Origin: a bacterium
Lineage (GTDB): Bacteria > CSSED10-310 > JAJRTK01
Reading direction: 5' to 3'
DNA length: 14,017 bases
Assembly: GCA_024278345.1 (NCBI GenBank)
Contig: JAJRTK010000390.1
Span: forward strand, 1 to 14,017
Shown here: one piece after another, positions 5,453 to 14,017 of the stretch
Layout: each line of letters opens with the position of its first letter
How positions within the stretch are numbered: the stretch's first letter is position 1
The notes under the pieces: model-generated
What the model saw: the letters and a program-made list of their open reading frames with translations, nothing else
Told to the model about the DNA's origin: nothing
Database searches by the model: none
Translations under genes and position numbers: made by a program

Positions 5453-5497
5453 CGGTGGCACTCCGCTTTCAGGGCAACCGAAGGGAAAGGGGGGGGA

Positions 5498-5547
5498 AAT
5501 GGCGAGGAGCGGGCGTCGGACGGCGCCCGATGGGAGCGGAACGCAAC
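5498..5547. repeat. dispersed hairpin repeat, copy A (short variant)
   Basis: Shares AATGGCGAGnAGCGGGCG (5498-5515) with copy B and the 3' block GAGCGGAACGCAAC (5534-5547) with copies B and C. The central hairpin is reduced to CGGGCG (5510-5515) pairing with CGCCCG (5524-5529). It lies in the 191-nt gap between the cNMP-domain gene and the BP74-domain gene. Confidence 0.6.
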
Positions 5548-5643
5548 AGGTAAAAAATAGAGGGCTCTGGAAATTACGCCGTAGAGCAAGAGCACCATCC
5601 GAGAGATTAGTCCCGGCGGAACGCCCTTGCGCCCGCATCATAA

Positions 5644-7154: not shown

Positions 7155-8460
7155 CGCTGAGCTCCCTTTGTGGACTGCCGTCTCGGAAAGAGTGGCGCCA
7201 AGAACCAACGTTTCTTTGCCCTTGGGGGAAAAGCTGACTGTCCACATAAAGCAGACGGACGCGAGCATCTTCCAGTGCTGGGTCGAGTTCCAGTGCGCGG
7301 GCGAAGCGGATCCGCGCTCGCTCGAAGTCGCTATCGAGCATGCGAATAATGCCGATAAGATGATGTGCATCGGCGAAGTCGGGTTTGATCTTGAGGGCGG
7401 TTTTCGCTGCGGAAAGGGCCTTGCCATAGCGCCGAAGGGTAAAATAACTGGTGGCTAGCTTGTAGCGTAAGAAAGGATTCCTCTTTTGGCGCTTGAGGGC
7501 GGTTTGAAAAAGCTTGATGGCTTCATCGAACCGTTTTTGGCTGAAATAGAGGTTGCCCAGGGCAATATAGGCCGGAGAAAACCTGGGAGCATCTTTGATC
7601 GCCCACTTGAATTCTTTTTCGGCGAGCAGCCGGCGACCTCGATGAAGGTAAGCCGTTCCCAAATTGAGCCGCGCCTTGGCAAACGTAGGCGCAATGGCCA
7701 AAGCCAGCTTGAACCGCTCGATATCTTGATCGGCGAAAACGAAAGATTTTCCTCCGTGCTCCGGCATTCCCAAGAGTGCGGCATAATCCACGCCTTCGTT
7801 GATCATGAAATGCGCAAGCCCCTCGAGATCGCTCATCACCCGCCGTGCAATCGCTTGCTGACGGGTCCTCTCCGCGAAATCCACGAAAAACAAGTCGGGT
7901 CCTTCTCGCACCACCGCACAAACATGGCCCACGTGAACAATCACACCTCCACGGCGAAGATAGCGGCGCCGTTCCGTAACGTCTACATAATAGGCTTCGA
8001 GTCCGACGGAGCGGGCCAAGGCAACAAAAAAATTGGTGAAAGAGACACAATTGGCCCTGCGTGACTCAAAAACCTCCACCGCGGTCAGGTTCACCCCCGC
8101 ATCGTAGACGACTCGAAGTGGCCCATGGACAATAGCTCGTGCCAATGCCTGGGCCTTGCCCTGGCTTGTGCGAAAGCCCGCCGTAATTCGCAGCGCAAAT
8201 CCCACCATCTCAGGAGTCGTTTCCAAGAGGTTCGGCAACCCTTTGGCCCGCTCCCCCAAGCGACGCTCCAAGATTTTTTGCCTGGCTGGAGCGCTCAAAG
8301 CCAAACGGCCCCCGGCAGCCGAAGCACAGCCCCCGAGGGCCAAGGCCATCGACCCGACAGTCAAAGAGACAAGTATCCCGGCGGCGAGAGCAGGAAAGAT
8401 CGACCCATTGCCCCGCTTTGCGTGGAGACCCCGTTTCTTTGCGTTGAGTTCCCCTCGCAT
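7105..8460 (-). CDS. lipoprotein with transglutaminase-like domain and TPR repeats
   Basis: A 451-residue protein. Residues 1-45 are a lipoprotein signal with lipobox ALGGC (Cys45). Residues about 100-200 form a transglutaminase-like papain fold with a plausible triad: Cys138 in RRANCVSFTNFFVALARSVG, His179 (or His176) in VHVGHVCAV, and Asp194 in LFFVDFA. Such domains act as proteases, transamidases or inactive binding modules. From about residue 245, at least four TPR units follow, for example KARLNLGTAYLHRGRRLLAE, PAYIALGNLYFSQKRFDEAI and ADAHHLIGIIRMLDSDFERA, which suggest a protein-binding scaffold. The frame is open to 8580, but ATG 8460 places the signal peptide correctly; its ribosome site is weak. 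It is the first gene of a minus-strand group with the membrane protein and cNMP-domain protein. Confidence 0.82.
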   Translation of the reverse strand: MRGELNAKKRGLHAKRGNGSIFPALAAGILVSLTVGSMALALGGCASAAGGRLALSAPARQKILERRLGERAKGLPNLLETTPEMVGFALRITAGFRTSQGKAQALARAIVHGPLRVVYDAGVNLTAVEVFESRRANCVSFTNFFVALARSVGLEAYYVDVTERRRYLRRGGVIVHVGHVCAVVREGPDLFFVDFAERTRQQAIARRVMSDLEGLAHFMINEGVDYAALLGMPEHGGKSFVFADQDIERFKLALAIAPTFAKARLNLGTAYLHRGRRLLAEKEFKWAIKDAPRFSPAYIALGNLYFSQKRFDEAIKLFQTALKRQKRNPFLRYKLATSYFTLRRYGKALSAAKTALKIKPDFADAHHLIGIIRMLDSDFERARIRFARALELDPALEDARVRLLYVDSQLFPQGQRNVGSWRHSFRDGSPQRELSVGQSLAESHFEHRWRR

Positions 8461-8630
8461 CAGGCGCGAGCCCGCACCCGCTGCTCGCCCGGCCACTCCC
8501 CTTGATGGAGCGCTGCCCCAAAAGCGAGGCCTCACCGAGGTTCTATGGGTGGCAATGCTCATAAAGATCCACACTCCCATGGGACCACGAAGTTCCCATT
8601 CGCTCCGAAACTCCCATCACGGATCATGAC

Positions 8631-12211: not shown

Positions 12212-12840
12212 CTAGACGAGGAGGACTCCTAGAAGGGAGCCGAGCAAGGCAGTGCCGCGTTTTCGGACGTTATGAACGAACTCAAAAAAAACGAGGTAGG
12301 CAGGCAGGTGCTCCTGGGAGATACCCCGGTGCGATCGGAGCCATGAGCGCAAAAGGGACCAGAAACCCTCCATCGTATTGACATGAACCTCGCAAAACCC
12401 GCCGGCATCGTCGTCACGAGCATATTCGCCCTTGCTATGGCAGACAGTCTCATGAGCGTAACCCCAATCCTCCAAACGTGCGTAAATATCGTATTCATCG
12501 GTGTAGATGAGGGAATCAGGAGCAATAGTTTTCTTGATGATGGGCTCGATGGTGACTTGTTTGACGTTTTCCAGCATCTGGATCGAGACCTGACCGCCCC
12601 GCTCGTGCATTCCAAAGATCGGGGGCTTCTCTTTCTCCAGCGTTCCGCGGCCTCGCGCACCCTTCAGTCGACGCCTTCGACCTTCGCGCCCTTTTTTACT
12701 TCATCGCACTCCACATGACCTTTGAGCTTTACTGGTGGTCGAGCCACTTCGATCCCTATCCTGAGCTGGGCGGATCTTCCGCACGCTGTCCTTGTTTAGC
12801 CCTAATTCTCGGTGGTGCTCCAGCCCTAGGGCAATGGATC
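12212..12840 (-). pseudogene. degenerate ISXO2/IS1595-type transposase with two reading-frame lesions
   Basis: Joining three frames gives a recognisable transposase: LGLNKDSVRKIR, then AQLRIGIEVARPPVKLKGHVECDE, then KKGREGRRRLKGARGRGTLEKEKPPIFGMHERGG and onward. The first lesion is a one-base shift near 12768. The second, near 12697-12700, has lost about a dozen codons after ECDEV, where relatives continue with YV and a glycine/histidine-rich stretch. DDE residues are still visible: Asp in ECDE, Asp in IYTDEYDIY, and Glu in VNTMEGFWSLLRSWL. The C-terminal 133 codons are open from 12610, but without the first catalytic Asp no active enzyme is expected. Terminal inverted repeats were not found, so the element boundaries are unknown. 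Confidence 0.85.
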
Positions 12841-12852
12841 GAAGGCGGCGAC

Positions 12853-12925
12853 AATGGCGAGCAGCGGGCGCCGCGGGAAACTCGCGCCACAGGCGCGGGT
12901 CGAACCGATGTGAGCGGAACGCAAC
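12853..12925. repeat. dispersed hairpin repeat, copy B
   Basis: Begins with AATGGCGAGCAGCGGGCG, continues through GCCGCGGGAAA, a hairpin CTCGCGCC-ACA-GGCGCGGG (12881-12899), and ends with GAGCGGAACGCAAC (12912-12925). It shares the hairpin and 3' block with copy C and both flanks with copy A. It lies directly beside the IS remnant. Confidence 0.7.
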
Positions 12926-13150
12926 ACGAAGAAAACAAAGGGTTTGCCGACAACTCCGCCCTAAAAGGAGAGCACGAGCGAAAATTGCGCCCTGGACGGA
13001 GAGCACGATCCACTTTCAGGCAGCCATCGTTCCCAAGGAAGAGGCGCCGCGACTTTTCCGGGCATTCCGGATTGGACAGAAGACCTTTCAGAGTTTAGCA
13101 ATGAGGGTTGGACAGGCCAACCGACTGATTTTTCAAGGACATGAGAGCCC
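12926..13150. other. intergenic stretch, no gene supported
   Basis: Together with repeat copy B this makes a gene-free stretch of about 310 nt between the IS remnant and the hypothetical membrane-protein gene. Short open frames on both strands have no recognisable domain and run across the repeat. AAGGA at 13135-13139 is the likely ribosome site of the next gene. I see nothing else I can support. Confidence 0.5.
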
Positions 13151-13726
13151 ATGAACCCGACCTCCACGGAACCGCTACACTTTCCGCCTCACCCACGGCG
13201 CCGCCAAACCAGGCTGGTCCTGGGCCTTACCATCGGGCTTTCGGGCCTGATGCTGGCCATTGTCTGCAGCGCTGCCTATTTCGTTGCCCAGACCGTCTGG
13301 TCGAGCATCGCCAAAGACGTGGGCGGTCTTTTCCTTCTCATCCCGGCGGCGGCGGGACTGGGAGCCATGGCTCTGGGAGCCATCATCGCCTTGAGCGGAC
13401 GAAATGATGGAGTGACCATCTCCGAGGATGAGATCACTCTCGTCCTGGGCTGGCAGACAACCGGGATCTCCCTGGCCGGAATCCGGCGGATCTCCGCTTC
13501 CCGGGTCTCCCAGAGGCTCACGGTTCCCCGCTGGCGGCTCGACATCCTGGGCGGAACCGGCGAACAGCTCTCCCTGGAGCTGCCCCCCGGCCCCGAAGCC
13601 CCGCTCTTCGATGTTTCAGCGATTCTTCGGGCCATCCTGGAACGCGTTCCCCAGTCCCCCATCCTCTCCAAGGAAGTGGAGCTTTACCTGGAAATCGGCA
13701 AGCTGCCAGCACCGGCACCGCAGTGA
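13151..13726 (+). CDS. hypothetical membrane protein, two N-terminal helices and a PH-like domain
   Basis: A 191-residue protein I do not recognise as a named family. Two hydrophobic helices lie at about 22-52 (LVLGLTIGLSGLMLAIVCSA) and 58-83 (GGLFLLIPAAAGLGAMALGA). They are followed by a soluble domain with alternating strands: DGVTISEDEITLVLGWQTTG, ISLAGIRRISASRV, RWRLDILGG, then a final helix at LFDVSAILRAILERV. This layout resembles the two-helix plus bacterial PH-like domain seen in YdbS/YdbT-like proteins, an inference from pattern only. ATG 13151 is preceded by AAGGA about 11 bases upstream. It stands alone between a decayed region and the hairpin-rich right edge. Confidence 0.72.
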   Translation: MNPTSTEPLHFPPHPRRRQTRLVLGLTIGLSGLMLAIVCSAAYFVAQTVWSSIAKDVGGLFLLIPAAAGLGAMALGAIIALSGRNDGVTISEDEITLVLGWQTTGISLAGIRRISASRVSQRLTVPRWRLDILGGTGEQLSLELPPGPEAPLFDVSAILRAILERVPQSPILSKEVELYLEIGKLPAPAPQ

Positions 13727-13770
13727 AACGCGGGCACAGCGCCTTTCCCGCTTCTTGCCGGGCAACCGGG

Positions 13771-13830
13771 GGCGCCGCGAGAAACTCGTGCCAAAGGCAC
13801 GGGTCGATACCGCCGCGAGCGGAACACAAC
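13771..13830. repeat. dispersed hairpin repeat, copy C
   Basis: GGCGCCGCGAGAAA leads into a hairpin CTCGTGCC-AAA-GGCACGGG (13785-13803), then GTCGATACCG and the 3' block GAGCGGAACACAAC (13817-13830). Compared with copy B, the stem changes C to T on the left arm and G to A on the right arm, keeping the pair. Confidence 0.7.
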
Positions 13831-13895
13831 CCTCGCCTTGCTCTTTCGGGGCCTTGGTCATCGTTCCGGCCACCCAGTGAACTTCGGGTCCAGCC

Positions 13896-14015
13896 CCAGG
13901 GCTTCCAGCCCTGGAACCCGGCGGAGGCGGCCTCCGGACCTCCGCTGGGAGCGCCGCTCCCAGACCCACGCCAGGGAGCGCACTCATTTCCCGTTGCAAC
14001 TTGCGGGCAACGGGA
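13896..14015. repeat. cluster of four hairpins at the right edge
   Basis: Four inverted repeats follow one another in non-coding DNA. CCAGGGC-TTCCA-GCCCTGG lies at 13896-13914, CGGAGG-CGG-CCTCCG at 13922-13936, CTGGGAG-CGCCG-CTCCCAG at 13945-13963, and TCCCGTTGC paired with GCAACGGGA at 13989-14015 around a 9-nt loop. None has a T-run, so an intrinsic terminator is not shown. They could be a repeat cluster continuing past the window. Confidence 0.55.
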
Positions 14016-14017
14016 TC

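Follow-up and report, generated by a model that had tools for sequence, protein, structure and literature searches.

The window analysed here, a stretch of 14,017 nucleotides from a bacterial genome represented only by an assembly (6.06 Mb in 550 contigs), contains four copies of a hairpin-forming repeat. Three of them (A, B, and C, all on the forward strand) had been noticed in the initial annotation as sharing a 3' block, GAGCGGAAC(G/A)CAAC, which we found at the same places; the fourth, which had been overlooked, consists of the core only and lies on the reverse strand (8435..8492, 54.2 bits with the covariance model described below). Copy A is a 147-bp MITE (5454..5600) with the ends GGTGGCACTC... 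and ...GAGCACCATCC, whose flanking sequences, GAGACATC and GAGAGATT, are identical at six of eight positions and look like an aged 8-bp target duplication; its core hairpin and tail occupy 5498..5555 (75.7 bits). Copy B (12811..12979) is also a MITE, with the left end GGTGGTGCTCCAGCCCTAGGGCA, a first right end GAGCACGAGC, and a further right-end-like stretch, GAGCACGATC, at 13001-13010, and has no clear target duplication. In copy B, the core hairpin and tail (12853..12933, 50.1 bits) include an extra apical hairpin at 12881-12899. Such a hairpin is also present in copy C (13785-13803), which comprises core and tail (13771..13838) without MITE ends and matches the model over 13793-13838 only, with a score of 19 bits, because its left arm deviates. 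The compensatory base change reported between these two copies is real (CTCGCGCC-ACA-GGCGCGGG in B, CTCGTGCC-AAA-GGCACGGG in C); it sits in the extra apical hairpin. Just upstream of an IS1595-family transposase remnant (12212-12682, reverse strand; Pfam score of 95 bits over 12275-12682) lies copy B, and a closely similar fragment occurs on contig C295 (locus L181). The IS1595 family makes 8-bp duplications, and its members were considered as mobilisers of the repeat and rejected, since no ends in common with it were detected and the family is represented by two fragments only.

The repeat unit, a core about 62 nt long, comprises a GC-rich hairpin, with a short GC foot below the G·A mismatches, followed by an unpaired tail, GGAACNCAACCCAAAGAAA. 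Its successive parts are GGC, a G·A-rich internal loop (replaced by Watson-Crick pairs in some copies), two pairs, a G·A mismatch, C-G, a variable apical stem, GAGC, and the tail, with AAAGGC and GAGCGGAACNCAAC as conserved flanks. About one-tenth of the copies carry the extra apical hairpin, always oriented as the core (21 of the 22 in the sample fall within model matches, all in the same orientation). Across 86 distinct rows, pairing was observed in 87.7% of cells, compared with 72.6% after shuffling and 20-57% when the partner was slid, and changes on both sides were seen in 11 of 12 modelled pairs, in an alignment that was fitted to the covariance model, which favours structure, and with shuffles and pair counts that ignore the relatedness of copies. 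A smaller set aligned without the covariance model likewise covaried strongly when compared with shuffled and slid controls, and sites selected by the tail showed a fold upstream (mean z -1.55) that is absent downstream (mean z -0.04). On one strand, G·U outnumbers A·C by 200 to 9 in all copies and by 77 to 2 in copies picked by the exact tail sequence, ratios that do not count events since many of these cells are inherited. As G·U and A·C are equally easily reached from a Watson-Crick pair by one transition, the fold of the sense strand appears to matter, and the ratio of the two may serve as a cheap way to tell which strand of a repeat folds. In single-stranded DNA, too, G·T is more stable and better tolerated than A·C, so the asymmetry is no proof of RNA. 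The excess of paired substitutions and the G·U preference strongly support the earlier proposal that selection acts on structure in a dispersed repeat. At four places (L205 9875, L143 5511, L126 15233, and L100 2340), the arms seem to be swapped (GATG...CAGC for CAGC...GATG) with the tail unmoved.

In the genome to which the window belongs, the pattern GAGCGGAACRCAAC was matched 204 times and a reversed-pattern control not once, and a covariance model built from 21 copies has at least 150 matches there. Among the contigs C1-C80 (843 kb, chosen by their numbering and not by content; E thresholds of up to 0.1 for C1-C60 and 0.01 for C61-C80), 111 model matches were detected, which extrapolates by scaling to about 800 copies per genome. 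The same model detected no copies in 59 other genomes, a set that includes seven from the same phylum. These results exclude chance similarity, as the initial annotation had argued from the three copies. Scanning 84,980 species genomes (GTDB) and viral contigs (IMG/VR) for the pattern returned four isolated sites, which we read as chance, and plasmid and phage records gave no match. When the covariance models of Rfam 15 were applied, none reached its gathering score in the window and none matched copy A up to E = 10.

Recent copies are MITEs of 146-150 bp flanked by 8-bp target duplications, perfect examples of which are TGTTTTCG, AGGATTCC, AGAAGATC, AGAATCTC, GGCCTTCC, CGTTTTCG, and CGAACTGG. 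Their ends are GGTGGTGCTC-N6-TAGGGC and its counterpart, corresponding to the terminal inverted repeat pattern GGTSGTGCTC-N6-TAGGGC, which is found at both ends in at most 77 of 230 sampled copies. Genome-wide, the MITE end pattern has 38 exact matches (none in the control), two of which, on contigs C58 and C548, bound remnants of IS1-type transposases with a mutual identity of 92%. Both give weak matches to the IS1 DDE domain (17 bits, below the cut-off, on C58; 26 bits, above it, on C548), one matching end is visible in each, and an intact IS1-type element with the same ends was not found in the assembly. A second MITE-like family with unrelated ends, CTGAAACATCCCCTCATTT...AAAATGAGGGGATGGCTCAG, bears the same core at several places (L082 549, L080 7551, L212 18092, L085 3291, and L223), with a 9-bp duplication, GGTCTGGGC, suggested at L082. 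MITE flanks are recognisable in 77 of the 230 copies, unrecognisable in 112, and unclear in 41. Where no left end can be recognised, copies keep a conserved core between flanks that are close to background, with faint flank remnants in a minority; both decay of MITE ends with retention of the core and movement of core-only units are possible. The suggestion of a MITE-like repeat thus holds for a subset of copies, with terminal inverted repeats, target duplications, and ends matching IS1-type remnants. Overall, the structure and mobility of the hairpin repeat are well supported.

With regard to genes, which were predicted with a home-made caller, only 15 of the 230 sampled copies lie inside coding regions, about 80% of the sampled DNA being coding by predictions of the same kind. 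Within 150 nt of gene starts, a cut-off picked after the bias was first noticed, 79 copies are in sense and 25 in antisense orientation (p about 1e-7), and the sense strand there is the same one that favours G·U over A·C. The bias persists when the gene sets are restricted more stringently (p 7e-7 and 2e-4) and when the limit is widened to 300 nt from starts (115 versus 61, p 6e-5), whereas no bias was seen within 150 nt of stops (75 sense, 63 antisense). Distances between copies and starts are broad, and a simple sigma-70 scan on both sides of the copies gave no promoter signal that would place them inside leaders. The reading of GGAAC as an ECF-type promoter was rejected because a conserved -10 region is absent downstream, and integron attC sites were rejected because the copies are scattered over many contigs in both orientations.

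Taken together, the covariation, the tolerance of G·U on one strand, and the sense bias at gene starts suggest selection on an RNA hairpin. In the explanation that we prefer, with a probability of roughly 0.55, the core would have been carried through the genome by small non-autonomous transposons. One carrier family has IS1-type ends and was probably moved by an IS1-type transposase, and another has unrelated ends. After insertion, the transposon ends would decay while the core persists, because it would fold as RNA in the transcript, probably within leaders of the genes that follow, and would there most likely modify transcript stability or translation. This role in transcripts is inferred from the genomic pattern. 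A more far-reaching version, in which a transposon-borne RNA module was acquired by unrelated MITE families and adopted by one lineage as shared post-transcriptional control in hundreds of leaders, is offered tentatively and seems rather doubtful.

Several other explanations account for part of these observations. Much of the evidence for mobility, including the terminal inverted repeats, target duplications, and matching IS1-type ends, would also be expected of a plain selfish MITE family whose hairpin serves the transposon only and whose orientation bias arises from purging of antisense insertions near starts, and MITE-flanked copies are indeed biased at starts as well (23 versus 8 within 150 nt). 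However, retention of the core in the 112 copies without recognisable MITE flanks and its sharing with an unrelated MITE-like family argue against this explanation, which we regard as improbable. An intrinsic terminator or attenuator would fit a stable GC-rich intergenic hairpin, but the hairpin is not followed by a U-run on either strand, and the orientation bias is strong before starts and absent after stops, making this possibility very remote.

It is somewhat more conceivable, though still unlikely, that the core is a REP-like hairpin of single-stranded DNA that moves by itself via a RAYT/Y1 transposase and was merely captured by MITEs. Its size, copy number, intergenic placement, and conserved stem mismatches agree with the REP-like character proposed initially, and stem subfamilies are common to copies with unrelated flanks. 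On the other hand, the hairpin foot lacks the GT[AG]G and CGTC tetranucleotides, dimers hardly occur (3 of 128 neighbour pairs are closer than 300 bp), and a bias at starts and not at stops is unexpected under strand-specific insertion. The initial annotation had also suggested looking for an associated RAYT, for which nothing convincing emerged. The only RAYT gene in the genome (C390:22510-23235, or L145 17510-18235; NCBIfam REP-associated tyrosine transposase, 67 bits with a cut-off of 80) has a degenerate core over its stop codon, which, with copies so dense in this genome, could be due to chance. Two in-frame double-foot REPs of the typical GTAG type (GGGCGGGTTCGGAACCCGCCCCTAC, twice) are inserted between the HuH and Y motifs of the gene, and these are therefore probably its cognate REP. 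By its DHVH and YIENNP motifs, this RAYT resembles subclass 2.4, whose genes often have in-frame REP insertions (PMC6006769). When the RAYT protein was searched for in 193 genomes, 35 (own genome included) had matches, and 30 loci were obtained, one of them the gene itself; four of the other 29 are without a RAYT frame, L165 has a different frame, and L150 and L158 seem to end early. Inspection by eye of the 3' flanks of the remaining relatives revealed no comparable core.

Compared with known systems, this MITE-borne hairpin repeat of RNA type is of a familiar general kind, and its sequence and combination of features are new. BOX, ERIC, and Correia-type repeats are short, non-autonomous, and strongly structured as RNA, some have ends like those of resident insertion sequences, and they affect co-transcribed genes, sometimes in an orientation-dependent manner (PMC3049150). 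The present repeat differs from them in its ends and sequence, and its internal hairpin is the conserved part, which appears to outlast the ends and is common to two transposon-like families. REP, BIME, and REPIN elements occur between genes in hundreds of copies and are imperfect palindromes whose stems show G-T pairs and alternative complementary residues (PMC3733652). These features are shared here; however, our repeat is not dimeric, has no GTAG/CGTC foot, has MITE ends in many copies, and shows no shift to convergent or 3'-end positions. The Sulfolobus MITEs SM3A and SMN1, which derive from insertion sequences, have terminal repeats and small direct repeats and are mobilised in trans by a resident transposase (PMC3718332). 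Terminal repeats and small direct repeats are likewise found here, and trans mobilisation by an IS1-type transposase appears probable, with the differences lying in the IS1-type ends, the 8-bp duplications, and a structured cargo that appears to survive end decay. Transposon ends and cargo are usually inherited together, whereas here the decaying ends and the persisting structured cargo, oriented with gene starts, appear to come apart; if transcripts confirm the proposed role, this would clearly exemplify how mobile DNA can distribute an RNA element throughout a bacterial genome.

Other repeats lie at both edges of the window. Positions 1-80 contain CCGGATCTGATAGGT twice, and the same repeat adjoins other copies of the element (e.g., at L011 and L023). 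A different composite repeat (GGTCATCGTTCCGGCCACCC, GGGAGCGCCGCTCCC) occupies 13850-14017 and reaches the contig end, and DNA similar to it was found within the IS1-type remnant on C58.
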